Positions 12,936 through 34,000 of a DNA stretch of 34,852 nucleotides are shown one piece after another (the first letter of the stretch is position 1; each line of letters starts with the position of its first letter). A program made the position numbers and the translations under genes. Source of the stretch: Candidatus Omnitrophota bacterium (lineage in GTDB: Bacteria; Omnitrophota; Gorgyraeia; Gygaellales; Profunditerraquicolaceae). The notes under the pieces are model-generated. The model was not told the DNA's origin. It saw only the letters and a list, made by a program, of their open reading frames with translations, and did not search any database. The stretch is taken from the NCBI GenBank assembly GCA_016867115.1, contig VGKG01000012.1, positions 1 through 34,852 of the forward strand, given 5' to 3'.

Positions 12936-14534
12936 CTAGCGGACATCCACTATCGCTATGCCGCGGTCGATTATACCGACGGGAGAGGTGACCACAAGGA
13001 ATACCACCTTGGTGCCGGGTGTCGGGTATTTTGTCCTGAGGGCGGGCTTATCTCCGGGGGGGGTCTCGCTTGCCAGGTCCCCTGACCATAGATATTGTAG
13101 CACTACCTGCATGCAGCCACTCTCTGTTGTATAGGCGCTCGATGAGATTTCGACATCGCTCTCGGGCTTGGCCGGATTCGGGGCTACTGCCGTCTCCACT
13201 TTGCTCATATCAAAATTACCGGACTCTTCCTTCAGGGAGGCGTCCAGAAAAGTATCCAGGTTGTATTCCAGGGGCTTTCTTTCATTGATCTCTTTGAGCC
13301 GCTCTTTGGCAAGGGCAACGGTATCCGCGAAGCCGTCTTTAGCTTTTTCAACCAAAGCCGTATAATATTTTTTGGCTCCTTCGAAATCGTCCTGCCATTG
13401 CAAAAGAAGCCCCAGATGATATAAGGAAGATATGGCCCAGGGATCGGCTTCTTCTTTTTTTGCCAGCTTCTTAAAATAGTCCTCTCCCTCTTTAGCGTTC
13501 CTCAATATATAGGTAAAGATGACCCCGGTCTTAAAATCCGCTTCATCCGCATAAGTGGAACCGGGGTAAAATCCGGTCAGCTGCACAAAGTAATCCTTGG
13601 CTTTGGCATAGTCTTTGGCTTTCTCTAAATTATTGGCGCGCAAATACATTAATTCCTGGTCAAAAACCTCTTTCCCTCCCAGCTCCTCTACTTTCATAAA
13701 GACCTTTTCCGCATAAAGCGGATCGTTCGGTTTATCGGGCTGATAGGAAAATTGCCTGGCCAGCCCGGTTAAAACAGGCAAGGCCTTTTCTTTGGGCCCT
13801 GCCTTGATCACCCTTTCAATATAAGCGTCGTAGATAGTCTCTGCCAATCCCAGGTTTCCCTGACTGAAAAAACCCGCAGCCAGCCGTTCTAAATCCGGGG
13901 TATCGGAATCCGGGGAGATGACTTTTTGCGCATAAAGCCTGTACAACTCTTTGGATCTCGATTTTTCACCGTATCCGGAAAGGATATCCGCTGCCTCCCT
14001 TAAAGGCTCGTAATCCTTGGCGCTCTTTGCGTATTCGCCAAGCGCGCCGGTCAGGGCAATAAGCGATTCTTCGGCAAAAGCATCCTGCTGGTCCTGATGG
14101 AACTGCCATAAGGCTAAACGGCTGTAGATCTGCGCGCTGTCAGCCGGCGTAGTGGCATCAATGGCAGCCTGCGCGCAAGACACCAGGTCCTCGCGGTAGG
14201 CATTGCCCTCGTTAAAATATTCATCCCAGAGCTGCTGCTCTTCCAGGTACTTAAGCTGCCGGTAGCGGGTGAGCGCAATATAGTAGTTTGCGCAAGGGGC
14301 GACAGATTTATTCTTCTCGGTAAGGGTTTTTAAATAAGCGGCGAACTCGTTGTATTTATTTTCTCTTACATATTCATCCATCACCGCTCTAAAGCAGGGG
14401 CAGTTGCCCTCAAACTCCTTTAGCTCTTCAATCTGCTTTTTGCAATCGGCAGCTGCCTCCTCTTTGGCAAAAGAGAAACCGCAGGCCAATAAAGTTGAAC
14501 TTAATACTAAAATGAGAAGATTGGATTTTTTCAT
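12936..14534 (-). CDS. Secreted TPR-repeat protein
   Basis: 532 aa with a clear signal peptide (MKKSNLLILVLSSTLLACGF, cleavage near FAKEE). The mature part is a helical repeat protein with TPR/SEL-like units. Examples are 'FFSQGNLGLAETIYDAYI', 'YLRANNLEKAKDYAKAKDYF', 'GVIFTYILRNAKEGEDYFKKL' and 'YHLGLLLQWQDDFEGAKKYY', at about residues 200-400. The C-terminal ~100 residues are different and beta-rich ('VEISSSAYTTESGCMQVVLQYL'). The ATG overlaps the stop of the glycosidase gene as ATGA, preceded by GGGGAAGAG, so the two are co-translated. It may act as a periplasmic scaffold for glycan handling; this is inference from context. Confidence 0.8.
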   Translation of the reverse strand: MKKSNLLILVLSSTLLACGFSFAKEEAAADCKKQIEELKEFEGNCPCFRAVMDEYVRENKYNEFAAYLKTLTEKNKSVAPCANYYIALTRYRQLKYLEEQQLWDEYFNEGNAYREDLVSCAQAAIDATTPADSAQIYSRLALWQFHQDQQDAFAEESLIALTGALGEYAKSAKDYEPLREAADILSGYGEKSRSKELYRLYAQKVISPDSDTPDLERLAAGFFSQGNLGLAETIYDAYIERVIKAGPKEKALPVLTGLARQFSYQPDKPNDPLYAEKVFMKVEELGGKEVFDQELMYLRANNLEKAKDYAKAKDYFVQLTGFYPGSTYADEADFKTGVIFTYILRNAKEGEDYFKKLAKKEEADPWAISSLYHLGLLLQWQDDFEGAKKYYTALVEKAKDGFADTVALAKERLKEINERKPLEYNLDTFLDASLKEESGNFDMSKVETAVAPNPAKPESDVEISSSAYTTESGCMQVVLQYLWSGDLASETPPGDKPALRTKYPTPGTKVVFLVVTSPVGIIDRGIAIVDVR

Positions 14535-15817
14535 CTCTTCCCCTTTTTCTTAGGCAGGGGTTTGGGATTCTTCCAGAACTCCCTGACCACATAATAGGCC
14601 TTGCGGGGCATCCTCTTATTCAGGCCGCTCTCCGTCTCTTCGGAAAGTGCAGTGATCCCGAACCACTCCTCGTTCATGTTCTTGTTATTTTCGGCCTTGA
14701 TATCGAAATAATAACTCCCGTTTGACCAGTTGGAACCGGTGTCATGGACCTTCCAGGCCTCGGGGTCGCTTTCGTTATGCTTCCACCATTCATCCGTCCA
14801 TTCAAACATCGCCCCGCCCAGGCAATTTCCTTCGCCCTCCGGATTTTTCGCCAGGTTATCGTAGATCTGGCGCCACTGCGATTCCAGGAAGAAGGCCTGC
14901 ATATTCTGGTCCTCTTTTTTCAGGAACGCATCATATGCATCCGCACCGAACTCAGCAAGCAGTATCGGTTTATCGAAGGTCGCTTTCAGCGATTTAAAAA
15001 GATTTCCGAAGGTCTTGCCTCTATAGATGATGCAGGCGACCAGGTCCACGTCGGGCGCGGACTCTTTGGCGTACTCAAGGCCGATCAGCTCACCGTTACC
15101 CAGGGCCACCGGATGATTAGGGTCAAGTTTATGGATCTCTTTAGCAATATCATTGACAAAAGAATAATAAATCCGGAAACGCATCGCCTTCTGTTTCTGA
15201 GGGTCGGGTTCCTTATCTATCTCATCGCTGGACCAGGGATTCACCTGGCCGAGGCAGGAATAATTATTTTCATTGCCCAGGATCCACAGCAATACTCCCG
15301 GCTCATCCTTGAAGGCCTTCACCATATCCAGGACTTCTTTCTTGAATCTCTCCTGAAAAGCCTTATCCCCGTAAAAGGGAGCCGGATACTCCCAGAACCC
15401 GAGCCAGTTGCCGAGAATCGTGCGGATGCCGAAATTAGCGTACAGGTCGCGGATCACCTGTCTTACTGCCTCGGGGTTTGGGCCCGGCTGATACACCCGG
15501 ATCGTATTGATGCCCATCTCCTGCATCAACTTGCCGTCGGTCATCCAGGGTTTATTCGGGTCAGACCACCAGTCGTATTCGTGGTTGGCTCCCACCGGCA
15601 CCGGGCTGTAACAGACGCCCTTTACGATCATGGGTTTTCCGTCCGCAATCAGCTGGTACTGGCTTTTTTTAAGTTTCTTGATGTAGGCTCTCGGCCGGGC
15701 CGCTGCCAGGGCGCTGGTCAGAAGTACGGCAAAAAATAAACTACAGGCCGCAAGCAAAAAGAGCCTGCGACCTGTAGTTTTAGGTTGATGATCTTGTTTA
15801 TTCGTACTTGATCTCAT
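14531..15817 (-). CDS. Secreted clan GH-A-like glycoside hydrolase (TIM barrel)
   Basis: 428 aa. An N-terminal signal segment (about residues 17-41, GRRLFLLAACSLFFAVLLTS) precedes a small beta lead-in ('QYQLIADGKPMIVKGVCYSP') of the kind seen before GH2 catalytic barrels. The barrel then has the two acids of clan GH-A: acid/base E183 in WILGNENNYS and nucleophile E289 in ILLAEFGADA. 'MGINTIRVYQPGP' and 'AMFEWTDEWWK' also fit. The substrate cannot be read. It shares layout and many motifs with the glycosidase at 17042-19381, so the two are paralogues. Its 5' end overlaps the upstream binding-domain gene by 20 bp, and its signal-peptide region contains an intrinsic terminator. Confidence 0.85.
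   Translation of the reverse strand: MRSSTNKQDHQPKTTGRRLFLLAACSLFFAVLLTSALAAARPRAYIKKLKKSQYQLIADGKPMIVKGVCYSPVPVGANHEYDWWSDPNKPWMTDGKLMQEMGINTIRVYQPGPNPEAVRQVIRDLYANFGIRTILGNWLGFWEYPAPFYGDKAFQERFKKEVLDMVKAFKDEPGVLLWILGNENNYSCLGQVNPWSSDEIDKEPDPQKQKAMRFRIYYSFVNDIAKEIHKLDPNHPVALGNGELIGLEYAKESAPDVDLVACIIYRGKTFGNLFKSLKATFDKPILLAEFGADAYDAFLKKEDQNMQAFFLESQWRQIYDNLAKNPEGEGNCLGGAMFEWTDEWWKHNESDPEAWKVHDTGSNWSNGSYYFDIKAENNKNMNEEWFGITALSEETESGLNKRMPRKAYYVVREFWKNPKPLPKKKGKR
15731..15780 (-). terminator. Intrinsic terminator inside the start of the glycosidase ORF
   Basis: In minus-strand RNA, AAACUACAGGUCGCA (from 15780 to 15766) pairs with UGCGGCCUGUAGUUU (15752 to 15738), giving a 15-bp stem with one U-G wobble and a 13-nt loop. 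It is followed directly by AUUUUUUG. The stem begins 18 nt after the stop of the upstream gene (15798). It therefore fits as that gene's terminator, yet it lies inside codons 13-27 of the glycosidase. Confidence 0.8.
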
Positions 15818-16949
15818 CCAGGTAAAACACCGCTCCTTCGGGGTTATTGTCGATGTTCAAAACGAAACAGAAACCGCCGACGATATAGGAAAGGTCCTTG
15901 CCTTTAAGATCGATGGTATACTGGGTCCATTCCTTGTTCAGGATCACCGGGCCGACGCTTGCGGAATCCGAATCAGAGAACTCTCCCATGATCCCGCCGA
16001 CCTTGAACTCTTCGATGCGCTCGCCACCCTTAGCGCCGCGCGCCCAAAGGGTGATCTTGGCGGCCTTGGAGAGGTCAAAACCGGCGTCAATAGAACCCCA
16101 GTTGTTCGCCGGGTTCTGCCAGTAGATCCCTGCCCAACGCGCGCCCTGCGTGATCTTACCGCTATAGATGATCTTGATGCAGGTATCGCCCAGGTACGGA
16201 TCCTCTTTGCTTGCGCCGTCATATTTCAGGTCGCCGTAATCGCCCATATAACCGGAGGGGATATAGTGATTGCCTGCGGTCGAGCGGTCGGCATAGACGT
16301 AGAACGGCATATTTTCCTTTTTCTTTCCTTCGGGTTTCATGGCCGGGTCTGCCTCAAACTTGATGTTATCGATATAGAATGTCGCGCCCTCAGGATTAAG
16401 GTCTGCGGTGGTAGACCAGCCGAAACCGCCGCTCAAGTAAGAGAGGTCTTTGCCGGCCAGGTTCACCGTGTACTGTTTCCAGGAATCGGTCAGCTCTACC
16501 GGTCCGATCTCGATGTTTACCGTATCCGGATAAGTGCCCTTGATCCCGCCGACGGTGAACTTCTGGATCACCTCGCCACCCTTAGCGCCGCGCGCCCAGA
16601 AGGTGAGCTTGGTCATGCCGGTGAGGTCAAAACCGCCCTTTTTGCTGCCCCAGTTGTTCGCCGGGTTCTGCCAGACCACTCCGGCCCAGCCCTGCCCCTG
16701 CGCTTTCTTGGCGCCGTAGACGAACTGGATGCAGGTAGCCCCGGATTGGGGATTTTCCGCAGACTGGTCGTTCATCTTGATGTCACTTGTGTCGCCCATC
16801 CAGCCGGAAGGAATAAAGTGGTTGTCCCGCGCATTCTTATCCGTGTAGACCACGAACTCCTTCGGGGCCTGGGCAGCCGGCTCTTGCGCCGATACGCATA
16901 AAGGTATCGCCAGCGATAGCGCCGCCATTAATACCAATAACTTTTTCAT
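15798..16949 (-). CDS. Secreted protein with two tandem carbohydrate-binding-like domains
   Basis: 383 aa from the ATG at 16949, which has GGAGG 5 nt upstream; a GTG two codons earlier is less likely. The signal peptide is MKKLLVLMAALSLAIPLCVSAQ. Two homologous domains of about 170 residues follow. Each has the series NH[F/Y]IPSG[W/Y]MGD, WAG-x2-WQNPANNWG, a FWARGAKGGE-like strand, GG[I]-x-G, W-x-QYT and FY[I/L]D-x-IK. The jelly-roll-like pattern resembles galactose-binding/CBM folds, so sugar or glycan binding is likely, but I do not recognise a numbered CBM family. No catalytic motif is seen. The gene precedes the glycosidase with a 20-bp overlap and should be expressed more strongly because of the terminator behind it. 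Confidence 0.8.
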   Translation of the reverse strand: MKKLLVLMAALSLAIPLCVSAQEPAAQAPKEFVVYTDKNARDNHFIPSGWMGDTSDIKMNDQSAENPQSGATCIQFVYGAKKAQGQGWAGVVWQNPANNWGSKKGGFDLTGMTKLTFWARGAKGGEVIQKFTVGGIKGTYPDTVNIEIGPVELTDSWKQYTVNLAGKDLSYLSGGFGWSTTADLNPEGATFYIDNIKFEADPAMKPEGKKKENMPFYVYADRSTAGNHYIPSGYMGDYGDLKYDGASKEDPYLGDTCIKIIYSGKITQGARWAGIYWQNPANNWGSIDAGFDLSKAAKITLWARGAKGGERIEEFKVGGIMGEFSDSDSASVGPVILNKEWTQYTIDLKGKDLSYIVGGFCFVLNIDNNPEGAVFYLDEIKYE

Positions 16950-17041: not shown

Positions 17042-19381
17042 TCAATTCTTAAGCCACAATTTTTTATAGGTAAAATAGGCCTTACGAAGCTGCCTCAGGA
17101 ACGGGCTTAATTTCCCGTCTCCCTGGCTGCAAAGGCCCAGCCATTCCTCATGCATGGAGCCGTCCGGGAAGGGACCCTTCCATAATCCTTTGGTATCGTG
17201 CAAAAACGGCTCGTAAGCCTTCCACCATTCATCAAGCCACTCAAAGACAATGCCGCCGGCGCTGTTTCCGGTACCGCCCCGGAATGCGCAATTATTCCTG
17301 ATATCCTCCCATGAACCCAGGTGATAATCCGCCTGAAAGTCCTCTGCCTCCTTCTGCGGCTTGCCTTCGTAATGAGCCGGGCAGCCGTATTCGGTGATAA
17401 ATGCCGGCTTATCCGCCTCTTCTTTGACATCCAGCCAGAACCGGCCAAAGCCGTATTCTCCGCGGTAGGCATTGGCGCCGAAGAGGTCTATATCAGGGCA
17501 GTCTTTGCCGAACTTATCCAGATATAAGATATCGCCGTTACAGATCGCTACCGGATGGTCCGGGTCGATCGCCTTGATGGCCCTGGCGGCTTCGTTGGCG
17601 AACTTAAAAAACGCATCCGGCTCTTTATCCGCGTTACAGCCGTAGCCGTAGACATTCTCATTGCCCAGGAGCCAGAACAAGATGTAGGGTTCATCCTTGA
17701 ACTCCTCTACCATCTTAGTCACTGACTCAAGCATCTTTTTCTGCTGAATCTCGCTGGTATAATCCGTGCCGGGGTTCCAGGGCGCCCCCGAACCCAGCGC
17801 ATACTTGCCTAAAAAGTCGCCCATGATCACCCGGATGCCGAAGTCTTCGTAGGCCTCGCGCAGAAGTTCCTTGTTTACCGGGAAAGGCTGATGATAAACG
17901 CGGATGGTATTTACGCCCATCTCCTTCATCAGCCGGAAATCCCCCACTGCCGGCTCAAACTTATCCTGGATATTATTCTTATTCTTATCCACAAAGGCGT
18001 CATACGGCCCGTCGATCTTGCCGTTCTGGTTGAAATCGTCCTCCATCCAGTTGGTCATCGTGCCGTTATCCGGCGACTGCCCCACTTTTGTCGGGGCATA
18101 GGTGACTCCCTTTATGACGTAGGGCTTATTATTCACCAGCAGTTCCCAGTCGCCGGTCTCATACTGGATGAGGCGCACCTTTCCTTTTCCCACCCTCTTC
18201 TTAACGCTCAAAAACCGGGTAGCCGGCCGCATCTTGAACGATTCTTTAAGCCTCTCCCAGAAGCTCACCTTCACGAACCTGCCCGGATTGGTAATGGCGA
18301 CATCGTCAGCCACGTTATTGTCGTAGCCGTTAACAATGCGCACATCCGCATCCACGAGTTTATAGCCCAGCTCCGGATGACGGCTGAGCAGATAATTGAT
18401 CTTGCCGATCGCAGCCTGCGCCACATACCAGGGCGTGCGCCAGTAGGTCCAGCCGTAACTGCCGGGAAAGTGCACTACGATTGCGTAATAGCATTTGATC
18501 GCTTGCTTTATCAGCCCGGATTTCTCAAGGATCAGGCCGGTGTAAAATAATTTCACCCCCTGCGGCTCTGAGGAGGTCGCCCATTTTAAAAATGCCGCTT
18601 CTAGGTCCGGTGAATGCACAAAATCCCAGTGCGAGCCTTCAAGGCGCTTTTCCTTCTGTGCCTTCTTGAATGCCGGGTCCCACCTGACCGCAGAGCTGTT
18701 CGGATATATCCCTTCGCCGACTGCGGCGATCAGGCCTTCCTGGTCCCTGACTTCATACCGGTAATCTTTTGTCCCGACATTCTTGAACTCGCCGTATTTT
18801 AAGTAGTCTACGACTTCTTCTTTGCCCGGGTCATGCAAGGCTATCTTTGTAGGAAGCTGCGAGACGCCTGCCGCCGGCCTCTCTTCCGGCGCCTCGGTGC
18901 CCGGGCAGGGCTCAGGCAACGGCTCGGCGGGATTCAGCTTGATGATGCTCTCCCTGGAAGCGCGGGCAATAGACCAGAACCAGCCGCGCGGGTCCCAGGC
19001 CTGCGCAAAACAATATTTCGTCAATACCGCCTTAAAGGCCTTGATCGAATCTTCGTTCTTTGCCTGGTCCCGGTATATCTCACCGAGCAGAAAGTAGGCG
19101 GTGGCGACGTTGTTCAATGTCGGTACTGCCTCTATCTCGGGCCTGGTCTTAGGCAGGGCCTTTAAACTTGCTTGCTCTCTATCCGCTTCGCCATGATAAC
19201 GGTCGATGCACTGCCTGAGAGAAGCTATCGCCGCGTCAATATCCTTCCTGTCCCGCGCATCCCGGGCCCTGGTGATCAGCCTTGCCGAAGCATGGTTCTC
19301 TTCTTCCGCATTCAAGCCGCAGGTAATGCAGGCTAAAAACGCAAAAACAAGGATCAAGCTAATCCTGTTGCCTTCTTTCAC
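17042..19381 (-). CDS. Secreted glycoside hydrolase (clan GH-A-like) with long N-terminal helical region
   Basis: 779 aa from a GTG at 19381. The frame is open upstream, but only this start gives a signal peptide (VKEGNRISLILVFAFLACITCG) and a ribosome binding site (GGAGAGG 7 nt before). It overlaps the symporter gene by 23 bp. Residues ~25-150 are TPR-like ('ITRARDARDRKDIDAAIASL', 'TAYFLLGEIYRDQAKNEDSI'), and a second helical stretch runs to about 350. From about 410 a beta lead-in ('RLIQYETGDWELLVNNKPYV') introduces a TIM barrel with acid/base E575 (LLGNENVYG) and nucleophile E664 (FITEYGCPA), ending 'GIVFEWLDEWWKAYEP'. It is a larger paralogue of the glycosidase at 14531. Inserted Asp/Asn-rich loops ('DDFNQNGKIDGPYDAFVDKN') look dockerin- or EF-hand-like and may bind calcium. 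Confidence 0.83.
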   Translation of the reverse strand: MKEGNRISLILVFAFLACITCGLNAEEENHASARLITRARDARDRKDIDAAIASLRQCIDRYHGEADREQASLKALPKTRPEIEAVPTLNNVATAYFLLGEIYRDQAKNEDSIKAFKAVLTKYCFAQAWDPRGWFWSIARASRESIIKLNPAEPLPEPCPGTEAPEERPAAGVSQLPTKIALHDPGKEEVVDYLKYGEFKNVGTKDYRYEVRDQEGLIAAVGEGIYPNSSAVRWDPAFKKAQKEKRLEGSHWDFVHSPDLEAAFLKWATSSEPQGVKLFYTGLILEKSGLIKQAIKCYYAIVVHFPGSYGWTYWRTPWYVAQAAIGKINYLLSRHPELGYKLVDADVRIVNGYDNNVADDVAITNPGRFVKVSFWERLKESFKMRPATRFLSVKKRVGKGKVRLIQYETGDWELLVNNKPYVIKGVTYAPTKVGQSPDNGTMTNWMEDDFNQNGKIDGPYDAFVDKNKNNIQDKFEPAVGDFRLMKEMGVNTIRVYHQPFPVNKELLREAYEDFGIRVIMGDFLGKYALGSGAPWNPGTDYTSEIQQKKMLESVTKMVEEFKDEPYILFWLLGNENVYGYGCNADKEPDAFFKFANEAARAIKAIDPDHPVAICNGDILYLDKFGKDCPDIDLFGANAYRGEYGFGRFWLDVKEEADKPAFITEYGCPAHYEGKPQKEAEDFQADYHLGSWEDIRNNCAFRGGTGNSAGGIVFEWLDEWWKAYEPFLHDTKGLWKGPFPDGSMHEEWLGLCSQGDGKLSPFLRQLRKAYFTYKKLWLKN

Positions 19382-20870
19382 CTTTACGCCTCTCCTCTTC
19401 CACTTGTATTGCTGCTTTTCGCCTTTCCTCTCTTCTCCGTTCCACCTGGTCACGGATTTCATATGCCCTGTCCTCTGAGATATCGAAAGCCATGATAATG
19501 AAAATGGCAATTAAAGAGGTTACGATCGGGATGCCGATATCAAAGATCCTCATCCACAACATAGTTCCGGGCGCTTGAGCCAGGCCGATCTCCTGCCGGA
19601 AACCGGTTGCGTTGATAAGCAGCCCTGAGATAAACGATGAAAGCGCTACCCCAAGCTTGACCATCCACCAGTATACGGCACTGAACATGCCTTCGCGCCG
19701 GGTGCCGGTTTGAAGTTCGTCATAATCGCAGACATCGGCGACCATGGAGCTCATCAGCGTAAAAAGCGATCCTAAGCCGAACGCGATGAAAGGAGCGGCG
19801 ATAAAGAGCAAATAGGGATTATTGGGATTATACCCTATCCATTTCAAGGCGTAACCGATGATCGAAAGAGGGATAGTGATAAAAAATGCGTTCCTCTTCC
19901 CGAGCTTTCTGGATAGCCAGGTAGTCAACCAGATCACGCCCATAGTACAGATAGCGCTGAACGTCCCATAGAAGCCAAGCAAAAGGCCTCCTCTTGCATA
20001 GGCCTGATCAAGCACAGGGGCATTCTTAAAGACATAGAAGAAAACGACATAGATGGTAAAGGCTGACGCGCACATGAATCCGCCGAAGATCAACAAGGTG
20101 GCCAGGCAGAGCTTGACAAACGGCTTGCATTTAAGGGTGATGAAAGCCCCCTTAAAGAAATCTTTCATGACATTCCGACCGCCCCTGATATCGGGCTTTG
20201 GCAAGTTACTGAAGTATTCTTTATTGAAAATTGCCGGCAGGATCCCGCAGCCGACGATAACGGAACCGATGATGATAGCCAGGACCCGGCCGCCTGCAAC
20301 GACATCCAAAAACCATCTTTGGTAGTGCATAATGGCCCAGCACCAGGGAGCGATGAGCCAGGGCAATTGGCCGACAAAATTACTGGCCGCCTGCAGGCGC
20401 GTGCGCTCATGATAGTCAGGGGTCATTTCATAGCCCAAAGCGATCCAGGGGATGGAAAAACAGGTGAATCCTATAAAGTAGAGAGTTTGAAATAATAAGA
20501 AGTACCAGAAATAAAACAATTCGCTATGCCCCTTAAATAGCTGAAACATCAGGGCGTAGCAAATCCCCCCGGTTATCGCGCCGAAGAAGATGACCGGCTT
20601 GCGGCGCCCCCAGCGGGTACGGATATTGTCTGAAATGTAGCCGGTAATTGGGTCTGATATGGCATCGACTATACGGGGAAGGGCTCCCACCAGGCCCACT
20701 AAAGCCGGATTCACGCCTAACCCGAGGTTTAAAACAATGACCATCTGTCCGATGAAAGCAGCCTGGGCAGTATTTGCAAATGCCCCTATGCTATAGATGA
20801 CTTTTTGAAAAATGGGAATGCGGTCCTGGGGAGCTGTAATATGGTGCTTATCCTTAACGGCTTGCTCCAT
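19359..20870 (-). CDS. GPH-type (MelB/YicJ-like) sugar:cation symporter
   Basis: 503 aa with about twelve membrane segments. The family signature is DPITGYISDNIRTRWGRRKP (about residues 56-75), the conserved loop of glycoside-pentoside-hexuronide symporters. A second hallmark is the C-terminal 'ADVCDYDELQTGTRREGMFSA'. These carry sugars or oligosaccharides with H+ or Na+. The tail is strongly charged (REERRKAAIQVEEERRKGER) and, at the DNA level, provides the ribosome binding site of the next glycosidase gene. The ATG at 20870 has a strong AGGAGG. A separate promoter precedes it, so it heads a symporter-glycosidase unit and likely imports the enzyme's products. Confidence 0.92.
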   Translation of the reverse strand: MEQAVKDKHHITAPQDRIPIFQKVIYSIGAFANTAQAAFIGQMVIVLNLGLGVNPALVGLVGALPRIVDAISDPITGYISDNIRTRWGRRKPVIFFGAITGGICYALMFQLFKGHSELFYFWYFLLFQTLYFIGFTCFSIPWIALGYEMTPDYHERTRLQAASNFVGQLPWLIAPWCWAIMHYQRWFLDVVAGGRVLAIIIGSVIVGCGILPAIFNKEYFSNLPKPDIRGGRNVMKDFFKGAFITLKCKPFVKLCLATLLIFGGFMCASAFTIYVVFFYVFKNAPVLDQAYARGGLLLGFYGTFSAICTMGVIWLTTWLSRKLGKRNAFFITIPLSIIGYALKWIGYNPNNPYLLFIAAPFIAFGLGSLFTLMSSMVADVCDYDELQTGTRREGMFSAVYWWMVKLGVALSSFISGLLINATGFRQEIGLAQAPGTMLWMRIFDIGIPIVTSLIAIFIIMAFDISEDRAYEIRDQVERRREERRKAAIQVEEERRKGERRQQD

Positions 20871-24122: not shown

Positions 24123-24253
24123 GGCCACAACTTACGGAATGAGCGCCTGCAAGCCGGCAGCCAAGAAGCGAATGAACGTAAGTTGTGTGGCCGAATTAAT
24201 CCCGCGAGTACACCAAAATTACGGAACGGAATTTTGGTGTGATTACGAGCGGG
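24123..24253. repeat. Two adjacent inverted repeats, REP/MITE-like
   Basis: Most of the 261-bp spacer between the PilZ and lipoprotein genes is made of two hairpin-forming units. Unit one (24123-24192) has GGCCACAACTTACG facing CGTAAGTTGTGTGGCC around a 40-nt centre with an inner CTGC/GCAG stem. Unit two (24201-24253) has a perfect 11-bp stem ACACCAAAATT/AATTTTGGTGT (24210-24220 and 24230-24240), flanked by CCCGC/GCGGG. Neither is followed by a T-run on either strand, so they are not typical intrinsic terminators. A small transposon remnant or REP-like element is possible. Confidence 0.6.
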
Positions 24254-25018: not shown

Positions 25019-28000
25019 TTACCTCAGTGTTTTAATATATTCTTCAAGTCCGATCGTCACCTGCGCGACCGAATCGTTTTCTCCGGGAACCATCGTTATC
25101 CCGGGTTTACCCGCTAACGCACCGGCGAATGCCTGGCTGTCTTTGGGGCTAAGGATGCTATTTACTCCGCTTCCTCCGATGATGTATCTTTTATAATGGT
25201 TTGCGTGTAAATGCTCGATCAGGCGGTTACGCAGTCTTGTGCCTATCCCGTCGCGCCGCCTGCTTGCCGCTACATAGATACCGTCACCGTGGATTTCCTC
25301 GTCGGAGACTCTGACAAACGAAACTAACGCGACTGCGCGGCCGTTTTCATAGGCAATCAGCGCATCGTGCCCGGGCCTCTGCCAGTATTCATCATCCCAA
25401 CCCTGCCAGAACCCGCGCTCCTTCTGCGCCTCTAAGACCAAAAGCGCCACACCTGAATCGTAAAGTCTATCCCGATCAAGCTCTGACGCAAACTCAAATA
25501 CTGAATTCGCCGCGATTACCATTCCCCGGTTAGTCGGATACCGGTGCGGAAAGGCATCCTCAACGCGCAATCTTGCCTTGCCGGCCAAAATATTTGCCCG
25601 CTGGTGGGCAGTGTCCGAATCTACGATCAGATGCGCCTTAAAAGCAAGGAACTCGCCTGCTTCATGGTAAAGGGGTGCGCCCTCTTCAAGGAGCTCATCT
25701 TCGGCTTCGATGATAAGCGTCCGGTCATTCAACCTGACGAGCCTGCCGCCGTTATATTCTGCGAGGCTCCCTTTTTCGACGACATGCAGGGAAACACGGT
25801 AAGTTATGCCTTGGTAATCAATAACCAGGGTCTTCTGTTTAGCCGGCCCCAAGGTAACATGCCTGCCGATAAACTTATTATTGCAGCTTGCCGCCACGAT
25901 TACTACGATCTTGTCTTTTGCAATGATCAGGGAGTTGTCGCCGAAATAAGAATACGTGCATTCGCTTGAACTGACATATTTATCTGAATAAGGGTTGAGC
26001 ATGACCATGCCGGCTTCGGGCACGACGCTATCCACGATCATGGTCCTGGTCCTGCCCCTTATGAATCGGCCTGTCTCGGCATTCCTTATGGACCTGGTAA
26101 AGAGTACGATCTGGCCCTTCTTGAGCTGGTCAATCGTCTTTACGGTGAACTTACGTTTGTTTAATGCCATAGTCGCTTCTACGTCCATAATAAAGTTTGT
26201 CCCGAACCTTGCCGTATAATCCTCGTCGAGCCTGACAAAGACTGCCCTACCTGTTGCCTCAATTACCCTGAGCAGCTTGATTACATTTTCAAAGATATTT
26301 GCCGTCACTGAATCCGGATCTGATTCGGCGGCTAACAGTGAAGCGACAGTTCTGTCCGTGGACGATAGCATAGCCGCAAGATTCCCTATGCCCATTAATG
26401 TATTCGCTATATCTACCTTAATAAAACTCTTTCTCTTCTTGGAAGCGGTGCCTCTAAGTTCCTGAATTATTATGGCGGGTTCTATCTGGATCGAATATCC
26501 GATAGTCCCGAGGGCGGAATTTTTATCGCCGCATAAATATTTTTTGATATCGGCCTGCAGCCCCCTGCACAGGGCTTCAAGTTTCCCCCCCTCAGAAATC
26601 CTTATCGTCTGAAAAATCTCTTTTCTTCCTTGCGCCAGCACATCTATTACCCGAAGCAGGACCTTTCTCTCTTCCTCGCCCAGAGAAACTGTCTTCCTTT
26701 CTCCGGCTTTCAGGCTAAAACATGCCTGCGCAAAGGCTTCATTATCTTTATCTTTGCTCTGGGGGTAGGCGATGACGCGGGCTTCATGAATTATAGTCAG
26801 GAGGAGTTCATTGCGGGAGGCGGTTGAATCAAGGTAGAGGATATTGTTGCGGAAGGTGCCGTAGATATAGGTAAAGCTCCCGGCGCGGATCTCGATAGAA
26901 TGGCGCAGCCTCTCTATAGCAGCAGCTACCCGGGGGTCATTATCTCTACTAAGCCCTATTGCTTCTTCAAGAATTATATCCCACATGGTTGCCTCTACCG
27001 GAAGCCGCTTACTCGCCTTATTCAGGTCTTCTCTGATCTGCTCTTCAGTCGGATTCATGCCCGGCTTTGCGCGGTGAGGATCGGCACTCTTTGACCACCC
27101 GTGGATACATTCCCATATTCCCGGGATGGGCCTTTTGGCGTTCAAAAAGGCGTAAGCGACCATGTCTTCAGGGACCGAGCGCATTGCGATCAGGATAAGC
27201 ATCGTAGTAGGCATAATAACTTCTGCCGCACAAAGCCCATATAGGATGAGATTAGTAAAGAAGTAATAAATCGCCATGTAGATAAATAGTCTGTTCAGTT
27301 TCTTAAGCTGCTCTTTTATATTATAGAGGTTGCGGATGCCGCCATCTTTTCTGCTGGTCAGGTAAGGCAGGAACATATACTCAAATGCAACCAGGTAGGA
27401 AGAACAGATAAGCAGCAGGCTTTTTAAGACAATATTCCCGGTGCAAAGATTTATTAGATAGAGCAGCCCGGCGTATTGCGCCCAGCTGAATACGCCGTAG
27501 ATAAACATGAGCAGTGTCTGCTTAAAAGAATAGCCTGGACGGTCGGATACGTACTGGCTGATAAAATCTATCAACATTCCTATAACGGAGCTTGCAAGAA
27601 CCGCCACCGCCCAACCGGCGAAGGACGCAAGAAACATGGAGCTTTGATCGGAAAATATGCTAAAGGCCAGAGAAACAACTATGCCGAATACGGCAAGCGG
27701 GACCATCCGGACGATACGCTTCTTTAAGGAGGATGACTTGGGAAAAAGTTTAAAATCCCTATCCGGACGAGAAACGCTCTCTTTATCGGGAGTCCTGCCG
27801 GTCAAAGTAAAAATTTGCCTGGAGATATGCTTCTGGCTGTCTAAACGTTCAACCGCAACCTCCCCGCTTCCCGGATCGAAATAAAGAGTCCTTGAATAAT
27901 TGTTCCCTAAATCTTCTGCTACACAGGGTATATTATATTTCTGCAATGTTGTCTTTGCGGCCTGGATATTCATGCCCCCAACGCAGGTTGCACCGGTAGT

Positions 28001-31000
28001 TGCGCCGGAAATCCCGGCGACTAAGTTACCGACCTCGCAACCCTTTTCCCGCATTTCCTTAACCATAGCCGGAATCGCGCAATCCACAAACTTCAGGAAA
28101 TCCTCTTTATCTTCATCGCAATCACATAATTCAATGCTCGGCAACATAGCATGGGCCAAGCCGCCCGTCTTTTTGACGGGGTCATACAGGGCAATCCCCA
28201 GGTACGGACCCAACGCATAGGTGACAAGGATATCCGGGGAGGACGCAACTTTCATCTTTCCCATATATACTGTTATATTGTTTAGCCCGTCATTAGAACT
28301 GTGCGAAGCCGCCGCTTTTCCTGTATCGGCCGTAGCCACGGCCAAGATGCCTGCGTTAGGCTTACCTGCGGTTGCCGCATCAAATACCGCCAAGTTAATT
28401 TGGGCGTGTCTATCACCGGCGCTTATGATCCCCTCTTCCCTGATTAACCTGACAAGACGCTGAAGATTTGCCGAATCCCTGATCTGCGCTCTGATGTAAT
28501 CACATTTATCTTTATATGCCTTCTCGCATCTTGACCAGCTTCTACGTAAATATTCTCTGTCCTCGCCGGTCATCGGCCTTAAAGAACCGCAAACCACATC
28601 TATAACTCCATCCTTATGCCAGTTCAGCCACTCCTCGAAACTAATGCGCTCGCCGTTTTCTTTAGTCTTCTCCATTTCCTCTTCAAGCGATCTCCGCTCA
28701 ATAAAATCCCGTAACGCCTTCCTTCTCGCTTGCCGCTCAAGATCCGGAAGGCATTTTTCTTTATAAGCCTCCCAGAGTTTGCGGAACTCAGGATACACCG
28801 ACGAGCGCAGGGCAAGGGGCATCGTTTTTTCAGAACTAATACACGGTCTTATGCTACGAGTAGCCATAGCCGAAAGATGTTTATTTGAAAACATCCCGAA
28901 GCAAAGGGGCAAAGATACTCTTATATCAAAGTTTCCTTTAAGGCAGAACAAGGCTCCGCCGACACACCCTAATCCCGGCCCTATAGCCTCCACAATCCTC
29001 CCGTCGTCAAGGAACCTTGTTTTTTCTCCACCGAAGGGAGAGATCGTTTTTACTCCCAATTCACGCAGCATGCTGGTCACTGGCCCCCAGGAATAACCTT
29101 CCTTCAGACAGGGAAATGGTTCGCCGATAGCTGATGGGATATCAATGAGCACTGCCTCTGTTTCTGTCTCCCTCAATCTTTCATAATTCCCTCCCAAAAT
29201 GAATATAACTCCACAAGCATCCCTTAAATACCTCTTGATATCCTCAAAGTAAATACCCGCGGCTTCAAGGTCATTCTTAAAAATAGAGTCCCTGTCATCT
29301 TCCTGAAAGACTTTTCCCGGATGGACAAAGAACGCGGCCGTGCCTTTATCCCTGGCAATCATTCCGGAAAGTATCTCTTTATACTTATGGATATCCTGCC
29401 AGGCAATCACCCGCGCAAAGGAAAAATAATACATACCCGAGCCATCGTCACGCGGATTGTCACATTTAAAACCGAACCGCAAAGCCAGTTTCGCAGTGGC
29501 AGTGTGGTCGACGCCTTTTTCAAAATAGGTCACTCCTCTCCTTTGCATATCCTGCATCATCAAAGCCCATAATGCCGAACCTATCTTGCGGCGTTGAAAA
29601 TCTCTTTTCACCGCGATCTCGCGGATAATCGCCTTGTTGCCTGTCTGTTCAGCCCAGATATATCCGAGTACAACTTTATCTTCGGCATAAACCAATATCT
29701 GGCTTCCGTATGCCTTGCCCCGCTCAATGATGCCCCTGTACGCTTGCGGCATGCCTTCGGAATATTCATTGCTCTCCTCTAACAGACACATGGCTAACCT
29801 TGTTATGCCCTCTTCATCGCCTGGCTGCGCAGGCCGGATATTCTGCAATACCTGCGCGGGCAATTCGTATTCTTCTCCATAAAGCCTGATTTTTTCCTGT
29901 CCGTCGGGCGGATGCACGCGGGGCTTTGCGCGGTGGGGATCGGCAGGAACGGCCTCTCTGCTTAATAAGATCGCTGCTCCCGTAAGTTTACCGTATTCTA
30001 CCTTCGGCTCAAGGCCGGCCAGCGTTACTTCTCCCTGAACTGGATTGACCCGGATCATCTGTTTGCGCCTTTTTATCCAGTAATCAAGAGGGCCGCCCGG
30101 GCGGAAATCGTTCCAGTCCAGGCAAAGAATATCGCAATTGGCTGCCTGGCTACCCTCTGCAGGGCGTTCTTCAAACCTGGCTAAAGCGAACAAGACCCTG
30201 TCGCAAGCTAAAATCATATACCTGCCGTTTTTTGTCCGCTCAGAACCGCCGGCAAAGACTCCATCGAGCTTTGCCTTGTCAGAGGCTTCCGGATCAAGAT
30301 AGCATTCGGCGATAAGCGGGCGGTGCGGGGCATATTCCGATATGTCTTTAACCGGGACAATGATCCTCTCGTCGCAGGAAGGCGGACGCATATCGCGGTA
30401 TTTTCCGGGGTCCTCAAGAACTCCTCCGTCAGGCAGGATGCTAAGGGAAAGGTCGAATTTCCGGCCGAAAAACTCTTCAAATACCCGATAAACCACCGGC
30501 TCGGCTCTCTGCCAGAACTCTACGCTCGTATCCAATACGAGGTCATAGTAGAACTTGAGAGAATCCGGGTATTCCTGTTTTGTTTCTTGCAGGCGCAAGC
30601 GGACTTCTCTTGTTTTGCAGCCGTCGATTTCGCAAAATATCCACTGCCGGGTCTGAGGGTCAGCCGCAACATGGATACGGATATCAAAATCTTCCGGCCT
30701 GATATCTGTCTCCTGGCAGATCTTAAAAAGCTCAAAACCTTCCGCCAGAACTACCCTTACGTCACGGGCCTGCCTTAGGCTATTAATATCATAGCCCATC
30801 CTCCTCCAGTCCCAACCCTCTTTTTGAACTAACTCGCAATCAAGAAACATCCCTTCTTCGTAATAATTATCAGCATTGATCACCTTGCGGCTGAGATCTT
30901 TATGTAATTCGCGGTTCAGGGCTTCAGTAATGGTGGTCTTGAAGACATGCTTATCGCCGTCGATCCCTACAAGAATTACGCCTTTTTTACGGCTGGCTGC

Positions 31001-34000
31001 CTCCTCAATGTGCCGGGATATCATTTCTATGGCGCCATCGTTGAGCCTAAGGAAGCGCGTCTGGCCGATCTTAAATCTAAAGAAGGAAGTATTTTCACCG
31101 AATACGCAGATTCGGGCAAACGCTTCGTTCTCTTCGTCTCTGCTCTTGGGATAAGCGATGACGCGGGCTTCATGGATGAGGGTAAGCAAGAGTTCTCCAT
31201 AAGAAGAGGTTGAATCAAGGTAGAGGATATTATTGCGGAAGGTGCCGTAGATATAGGTAAAAGGCCCGGCGCGCACAGTGATAGTGTCGCGGATCCTGAC
31301 TAAAGCATCTGTTACGCGCACATCCTTATCTCCTACAAGTTTTATCGCCAGATCGCAGGTCTGCCTGAATATCTGATTTTTAGCTATCGTAGCGCTTGCC
31401 CTGCCGATATCTTCCTGTACCTGCGCTTCAGTCGGATGCTTGCCGGGCTTTGCGCTGTGCGGGTCTGAGCCGGCTTCTGTCAACAGCCTGAATAACGTTA
31501 ACATAATGTCCGCTCTGGCATGATCATTCACGAAGGTAGTCCTGATAGGCGTGCCCCGACAACAAAGCTTTATCTTAAACCAGAGCCTTAACTCTTCAAA
31601 AAATCTCTTCGCGCCGGTAAGATAAATAACCACCGGAACCCCCATGTTTAATTCTTTCATAATATTTACGACTTCCAGGGCCGAATTATCTTCCCTGTAG
31701 CGCGCATAGTACTTGGGGCCGTACTTGCCGCGCATAAATATACGCAAGTTAGTGACTACCGCAATCAACCCCTCTTTATGGGCTTCTAGAATCGGCCTCA
31801 GCGAAGCGATATTATTTACGGCCAAAACACTATTTTCGCCAAAAGTCTTTTCAAATATCTCTTTTAAATCATCCTGCCTTCTCGTATAATTCTCTATTAA
31901 CAGGACTTTTTTCTTCTTGGGCGCTGCCCCGGAATCAACTGCCGCAGCGGCTCCAGCCATGGCGAAGATGCCCCCTGATTCATGCGCAATCCTGTTAATG
32001 GCAAAATGAAGATCGCAAGCAGCTTTTAAATTTAACCTGCGGGCTTCTTCAAGCGAGTCCCAGACCTGCTTCAGATATGCAATATGTTCGGCGGTTAATG
32101 CAATTAAGGAACCGGTAGAGGAATCAATTACTCCGCTTCCGTGCCAGCCAATCCAGGCTTCAAAGGTAACCGGCTCCGCGGCAAAGTTTATCTCGCATTC
32201 CTCTCTATAAGATTCTTCCTGAATAAAACTAAGCAGGCTAGCCCCGCGCCTTGATCTTTCTTCTTCGTAGATAGCTTCGCTGGTATGCCACGCTGTCCAG
32301 AGCCGGTGGAACTCCGGATACACCGACGAGCGCAGGGCAAAGGACGAAGTCTTCCTTGACCGGCTTAAAAGCATTTTTCCGACTTTGAGGCGTAAAAATA
32401 TTTTTCCGCAAAGACTCTGGTTGAACTGTAAAGTCCTCTGAACGTCAATATAAGAGGCAGGTATGTGCCCGAGCCTTCCTTTTCTAAAAAGGAAATCAAG
32501 TTCTTTCCAGAGCGGCAAAGGATCAAGAATAAATGCGACTTCCTTGCGGCGCAACCGGCTCAGATCAGTCCTGCACCCGTGTAAGATATTTTTCCTTTTT
32601 ATATGCCGCAGAAGCTCTTCGGGCAGGACTTTTGCTCTTGCCGCTATGCTTAGATGGCGAAACTCCGGCCCTATTCCATGCGCGATCCATTCCTCTGGCA
32701 CGCGGAAAAATACCGTAAAGACTTCGGGACGGCAACCCTGCCGTATTTCAGCGGCCCATTGGTTATAAGAAACAGCTGTATTAGATGCCTCATCCTCTTC
32801 ACACAGGTATCCTCCCGGAGATTCTAGATTTGCGTAAAAACCGTATTTCAGGATCAATTCAACATTATCCGCCGGCGCAGAATGAGAGATTAAAACGCTC
32901 TTTTCGGAATGACGCGGCCTGCGGGCGGTTATGTATTGCGCAAACTCTTCATTTTCTTCGTCGGTCCTTTGAGGATGCGCTAAGTGGCTGGCTTCATGCA
33001 GCCGGGTGAGGAGTAGTTCAGTATAGTTTTCTTTATTCAGGAGAGTGCGGTCAATATGGCAAGCATTGTTGCGGATGACGCTATAAAGATTAGGCATGCT
33101 TTCAGGCGGGACGCGGGTAGGCATCGCGCTCATCTGAGCGATTGCCTCGATTATTCCAGAGTAACCCATCGCCAAAAGCATCGCATCCTGGTCAACTTCG
33201 CGAAGATGCTCCGACTCTTCTACGCTGATCAGCTGATTAGCGCTTATCTCCTGCTGTATAGCCTCTTCTCTTTGTGCAGGATCTTGGGGCAGATGATTGC
33301 CAGGCTTTGCGCGGTGGGGATCGGTTTGCTCTTGGTTTCCGATGTAAATTACCCAATCAGCAAATTGAGCGTGCAAAGGCCGCGCTACCCATATTTTATT
33401 CCCAATACCAAGCTTCTTTGCGCCTTCAATTATTCTGCTCATCAAAAACGATCCGCGGTAAGCGCCGCTTGCCTCCTTCTCTGCTTCAGGGATGATTGTA
33501 ATTGACCAGACAGGATGGAATACTAGCGGGTCGATTAAATCCACTGATAAAGCCGGTTCACCTAATTTCTGCACTACTTCATCCTTAACTCGATCATTAT
33601 GAACATTGCCGAGCCATACAGCTATTTTTGCATCCGGATATCTACGACGTAAACCCCTGACCACGTTAACTAGTATTTCTCTTTGCCTATTAACCGCTCC
33701 CGCTCTTTTTTCTGAAGAAACCTGTGTAAAACTAACCGCTTCTTTTAGAGGAACGGCTGCGCCGTAAACCATAATACCATTTGTCCTTGCCTCAAGGAGT
33801 ATCCCCTTAAAAGTCCCTTTCGGTAATTTGCCGGCTTCCTCCATATAATCAAGATACGCCTGCAATGCAGGGTGGATCTCTCCCGTAACATTGAATTTAT
33901 CGATTAAGGGCTGGGCTTCCGAAGGCATATATTCCATCACTAGGATATCCACGCCGCTTGATTTTAATCCTGGGATGACCAAGGTGCGGAATATATCCTT

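Follow-up and report, generated by a model that had tools for sequence, protein, structure and literature searches.

In an operon of the Omnitrophota, a conserved stem-loop stands at the 3' end of the cistron for a binding protein, and it has the form of a terminator both in the DNA studied here (the window, meaning the whole analysed stretch of 34,852 nt) and in most of the relatives. In the window the element lies within the signal-peptide codons of the following gene, an exported glycosidase, and, judging from its sequence, it would probably, though by no means certainly, act as a leaky terminator within the operon that also forms the 3' end of the binding-protein transcript, while at the same time serving as signal-peptide code. 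The genes and elements concerned are the following.

17042-19510, minus strand: TPR-plus-glycosidase gene, first of the operon, a distant paralogue of the glycosidase (41% identity)
15798-16949, minus strand: upstream cistron, a secreted protein with a choice-of-anchor-J / carbohydrate-binding-like domain (NF038128 over its cut-off, E 1e-8), here called the binding-domain gene; ATG at 16949, Shine-Dalgarno (SD) sequence GGAGG at 16959-16955, UAA stop at 15800-15798
14531-15817, minus strand: downstream cistron, an exported clan GH-A glycosidase; ATG at 15817, without SD
12936-14534, minus strand: third cistron, a TPR protein, with a 4-nt overlap with the glycosidase
15704-15817, minus strand: glycosidase signal peptide MRSSTNKQDHQPKTTGRRLFLLAACSLFFAVLLTSALA, its boundary set by eye
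15780-15738, minus strand: whole stem-loop, 18 pairs (15 plus three basal A-U), 9 of them G-C, with a 7-nt loop
15763-15780, minus strand: 5' arm of the stem, AAACTACAGGTCGCAGGC, coding KTTGRR of the signal-peptide n-region
15756-15762, minus strand: loop TCTTTTT (RNA UCUUUUU), 7 nt
15738-15755, minus strand: 3' arm of the stem, GCTTGCGGCCTGTAGTTT, coding LAACSL of the signal-peptide hydrophobic core
15730-15737, minus strand: U-rich tract AUUUUUUG behind the stem
15767-15769, minus strand: codon 17 (CGC, Arg), which pairs with codon 23 (GCG, Ala, 15751-15749)

The best solved relative of the glycosidase is GH158 (E 2e-7), with the Pfam family Glyco_hydro_2_C falling slightly below its cut-off, and the ATG of the gene overlaps the end of the binding-domain gene by 20 nt. 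A separate glycosidase promoter was rejected, as the minus strand near 15817 holds no sigma-70-like site. A 331-aa ORF running antisense to the glycosidase (14744-15739, plus strand) is most likely a coding shadow. Elsewhere in the window, a 3263-aa open frame with multiple domains and ADPHRAKPG-type linkers (25019-34810, minus strand) becomes even longer at the edge of the window; proteins of giant size are a typical feature of Omnitrophota. Another palindrome (24201-24249, score 33) occupies the spacer upstream of an ABC-transporter binding-protein gene, where it may be a terminator or an operator.

The stem begins 17 nt past the UAA of the binding-domain gene and forms codons 13-27 of the glycosidase, the encoded part of the signal peptide being KTTGRRLFLLAACSL. 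The original prediction of a terminator-like hairpin inside these codons is thereby confirmed, with a stem that is even 18 bp long. Behind its 15-bp core stands the U-tract UUUAUUUUUU, so that a stable, G-C-rich stem-loop is followed directly by a U-tract, as in intrinsic terminators, and the terminator-type score (our own implementation of the d'Aubenton-Carafa form, taken at every stem length and for comparative use only) reaches +32, against values below zero in 456 of 456 control segments. The 103-nt fold has an energy of -39.7 kcal/mol, compared with -19.6 ± 3.4 in shuffled sequences (z -5.9), and 0 of 200 shuffles were as stable; the energies of the longest stems vary with the fold window. 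In a 435-kb sample of the window's own genome it scores highest of all hairpins that have a U-rich tail; among the others that follow a stop on the same strand, most do so at a distance of 5-26 nt, as expected of intrinsic terminators. No second mismatch-free copy of the stem arm was found elsewhere in the genome. A comparison with Rfam gave no family match at the gathering score, the only hit being mir-578 with 19.7 bits against the 98 required (E 0.72). The top score, the unique arm and the strong stem-loop found at orthologous junctions together place the hairpin beyond chance.

These junctions, 94 in number and each with both genes, were gathered from the family, order and class, and they come from related, MAG-based genomes. 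By energy density, a strong stem-loop is present at 85 of them, which answers the proposal that the hairpin be compared in orthologous loci. When the stem score was instead applied to the 100 nt past the binding-gene stop, its cut-off was reached at 69 of 94 junctions and in 13 of 2319 other 100-nt bins, which include the operon's other junction; by this score strong stems are rare at the operon's upstream junction and elsewhere. The element is thus a stem-loop at a cistron 3' end within an operon, position-specific across the 94 loci, as expected of hairpins of selective RNA processing and stabilisation (SRPS). All 13 further class-level loci fold to a stem-loop at the junction (the weakest being L174), and the same arrangement is seen in a closed genome, that of Ca. 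Velamenicoccus archaeovorus (NZ_CP019384.1, at about 161 kb, locus L178/L261), whose junction hairpin is long and lies in coding sequence. The survey also brought up glycosidase-like stretches in stop-free frames of 57,756 and 35,009 codons (G010:C2:57079-58056 and G088:C9:33606-34817, respectively), and, in G088 and G092, a second glycosidase copy that is 66-67% identical and separated by about 8 kb from the one in the operon.

That the hairpin is also read as protein is supported by the frame and the start. In 72 of 94 loci, a conserved glycosidase codon stands at a distance of 1 mod 3 from the binding-gene stop (p 1e-17), and in 60 of 94 an in-frame ATG inside the upstream gene is followed by an open frame through the hairpin. 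This overlapping ATG sits in the codons for the conserved binding-protein end FYLDEIK(Y/F)E*. As 66 of the 70 coding-class loci preserve the frame through the hairpin and the start is conserved in 60, the predicted double use as signal-peptide code is supported. In the window the glycosidase N-terminus reads RR, then LFLLAACSLFFAVLL, then ALA, which by eye and by simple rules has the features of a Sec/lipoprotein signal peptide; by the same kind of rules, a lipobox-like motif occurs in 43 of the 60 overlapping loci. Signal cores that the hairpin encodes have a lower hydrophobicity than those of loci where the glycosidase has a start of its own behind the hairpin (Kyte-Doolittle mean about 1.8 vs 2.9, coding and spacer loci; rank test p 7e-9).

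Such own starts, certain or probable, occur in about 16-23 relatives, and they raise the question of whether the true start in the window, too, lies behind or inside the hairpin (e.g. at TTG 15757), which would make the hairpin an ordinary intergenic terminator; a published warning states that REPs placed at the N-termini of predicted ORFs are in many cases extragenic (PMC3733652). However, no ATG or GTG exists in the window between the hairpin and the mature glycosidase, TTG 15757 has neither a basic n-region nor an SD, and a search for an alternative start behind the hairpin found no better one. The constancy of the frame in the coding class also stands against the spread of the own-start and unassigned loci, whose distances fall into the three frames as 12/6/6. 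We therefore regard a misplaced start as very improbable.

The overlapping start has consequences for translation. An SD match of at least 4 nt is found in 91% of the orthologous binding-gene starts, as opposed to 0 of the 60 overlapping glycosidase ATGs; it is absent also from the 16 own downstream ATGs (0/16). The contrast between the overlapping ATGs and the upstream gene suggests that translation of the glycosidase is coupled to that of its neighbour, i.e. that the ribosomes translating the glycosidase are probably those which have just finished the binding gene. It had further been proposed that ribosomes initiating at 15817 cover the stem and so switch termination off. A ribosome initiating there would, from its footprint size, extend to about 15802 and thus fall short of the stem at 15780, so that several codons of elongation would be needed; as the start moreover has no SD (0 of 60 such ATGs, as given above), the occlusion switch is unsupported. 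Ribosomes entering the glycosidase frame could nevertheless melt the stem, and some translational control of read-through is possible.

The junctions exist in two states, which differ in the sequence behind the stem. A positive terminator-type score was obtained for 54 of the 60 overlapping loci, for 4 of the 23 loci with an own or no assignable start and for 0 of 456 control segments, and at least five T in the eight positions after the hairpin were counted in 47 of 56 coding-class loci vs 1 of 21 own-start or unassigned loci (Fisher 1e-10). Part of this U-tract is a coding by-product, since hydrophobic residues have T-rich codons in any case: at least six T in eight are seen at about 42-45% of the h-core positions. 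Of 7 independent pairs with support on the tree, 4.7 and 4.8 show agreement between the junction traits and the start type, too small a number for a firm conclusion. Strong stems are kept in 21 of the 23 spacer or unassigned (own-start) loci, mostly without the U-tract; termination therefore cannot be a function common to every one of these hairpins, and the part that is always kept is the stem itself. In the own-start loci, the roles left for the stem are RNA protection, RNA processing and polymerase pausing.

This leads to a different reading, in which the hairpin does not terminate at all and is instead a processing or stabilising element of the SRPS kind, which guards the binding-protein mRNA at its 3' end once a full-length transcript has been cleaved; the U-tract would then be no more than a consequence of Phe/Leu coding. 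The persistence of stems in the own-start loci and the T-richness of h-cores by themselves speak for it, and hairpins at cistron 3' ends are proposed to set the ratios of cellulosome subunits in this manner (PMC4423207). Nevertheless, the synonymous enrichment of T in the 12 nt right behind the hairpin is much stronger in the coding class (z 7.2, and 4.4 farther on) than in the own-start h-cores (z 1.7), the terminator-type scores are far above those of all control segments, and the U-tract and spacing in the window are terminator-like. A purely processing or stabilising role is on this evidence somewhat unlikely, and the leaky terminator is the reading we prefer.

The stems were also compared with respect to their sequences. 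In type A, which is the window's type and the commonest (34 coding loci), 95% of cells are paired vs 84% in shuffles, in which the maximum was 86%. The base pairs of this type covary, and as a result an n-region codon and an h-region codon (window codons 17 and 23) are reverse complements in 27 of 30 loci, namely CGC/GCG (Arg/Ala) in 11, TAC/GTA (Tyr/Val) in 9 and TGC/GCA (Cys/Ala) in 7, with at least 7 changes of the couple on the tree. The stems outside type A are made of unrelated palindromes (CACAAGGTCACC, GGGACGGTTCTC, GTCATTGCGAG, heptamer-periodic arms and others), and the palindrome type switches approximately 39 times on the tree. To the original prediction this adds that the hairpin is conserved class-wide and that different species form it from palindromes unrelated to one another.

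Some of these palindromes are repeats. The near-perfect palindromes GGGACGGTTCTC..GAGAACCGTCCC, with variable centres, are dispersed and REP-like, with about 40 copies in G104 (e.g. L166, L168, L170 and L172) and 5 in G052 (L165, L167, L169, L171 and L173), and one copy of the GGGACGGTTCTC type is located at the studied junction. Genes for Y1/RAYT-type transposases (Y1_Tnp) are present in 10 of 10 genomes tested, including that of the window (G000), with several in G104 and G052, and locus L119 reads as a dispersed-type palindrome placed beside the remnant of a type-A hairpin. Dispersed copies of the kind that characterises REP/RPE elements were thus found in G104 and G052, and none was found for the window arm within its own genome, where it is unique; a genome-wide repeat family was for this reason rejected as the origin of the window hairpin. 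The GGTCACAAGG octamer family was likewise rejected as the source of the type-B hairpins, as its other copies are mostly stemless tandem repeats. Tandem octamers GGTCACAA / GGTCACCA occur in relatives (L054, L055, L048 and L038), mostly without stems. At L010, L023, L025 and L177-L179, the arms of the junction stems are tandem repeats of about 7 nt (TAGCGTT, ACAGAGT, GGACGAA), and such arms may be a fast route to palindrome growth.

The dispersal of several junction families in some genomes, the transposase genes and the palindrome beside an older remnant at L119 would all be expected if functionless palindromes of the REP or Rickettsia-palindromic-element type had repeatedly invaded the junction, where signal peptides accept almost any hydrophobic insert. 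Against this, the window arm is unique yet perfect, strong stems are rare at the operon's upstream junction and elsewhere, and the occupancy of 85 of 94 junctions despite some 39 changes of type is hard to explain without selection. The covariation of base pairs, with its compensatory changes in relatives, weakens the case further, and we consider an origin by functionless invasion alone improbable.

Returning to the leaky terminator, we infer from the sequence features a route by which the two proteins would come to differ in amount. The perfect stem begins just past the ribosome standing at the binding-gene stop, and should for that reason be able to form in the nascent RNA, with the U-tract coming next. 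The hairpin would then stop a share of the RNA polymerases, leaving a hairpin-capped and presumably stable binding-protein mRNA. The glycosidase and the TPR protein would be made from read-through RNA and hence at a lower level, the TPR protein being reduced together with the glycosidase. A second lowering would apply to the glycosidase, which has no ribosome-binding site of its own and would need ribosomes from the upstream gene. Both arms and the U-tract would simultaneously supply the n-region and hydrophobic core of its signal peptide. Codon bias hints faintly that more of the binding protein is made (95th vs 82nd percentile, with a reference set that barely discriminates).

A comparable arrangement is known from cellulolytic Clostridia, in which internal terminators between the genes of substrate-binding proteins and translocators set gene ratios (PMC9045158). 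There, as here, the first cistron in a carbohydrate operon is followed by a U-tailed stem-loop, and the proposal made for it, abundant binding protein and less downstream product through partial termination and 3'-end stability, is the one put forward here; the clostridial stem-loops are, however, intergenic and measured, whereas the Omnitrophota hairpin lies within the signal-peptide codons of the next gene and is known from sequence. Similarly, the SRPS stem-loops of the cip-cel operon of Clostridium cellulolyticum are located at cistron ends of a polysaccharide-degradation operon and are proposed to set subunit ratios; in that system RNA processing has been mapped, while the stem described here is protein-coding in most members (PMC4423207). 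Palindromes translated in frame are known, as far as the cited accounts go, from the Rickettsia palindromic elements (Ogata et al. 2000, 2002, via PMC10969869) and from intragenic REPs (PMC3733652), and the present case shares with them the in-frame palindromes, some of them REP-like and dispersed in genomes with Y1 transposases. In those same accounts, the Rickettsia elements are found in many unrelated genes, whereas in the Omnitrophota a single junction has retained a stem while the palindromes forming it, many and unrelated, replaced one another; its pairs show compensatory changes, and what it encodes belongs to a signal peptide. A literature search, in which few subscription papers were covered, returned no precedent for the combination of a signal peptide with an intrinsic terminator or with REPs. 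To our knowledge, the known hairpins that set stoichiometry all lie in untranslated spacers.

For the class as a whole, we put forward more tentatively that palindromes which end or cap a transcript have been a recurrent source of signal peptides, whichever palindrome occupies the junction becoming, once it is read in frame, the export signal. If that is true, one element would set both the level of an enzyme and its export, and RNA pairing would dictate amino acids, at the price of a less hydrophobic signal core. A conserved hairpin that is also protein code places the same bases under the demands of RNA structure and of export, which is visible as co-changing codon pairs and weaker cores. 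The junction would thus offer a natural system of about 100 species for the sharing of bases between terminator and coding sequence, for the behaviour of polymerase at terminators possibly traversed by ribosomes, and for the origin of signal peptides from palindromic DNA.
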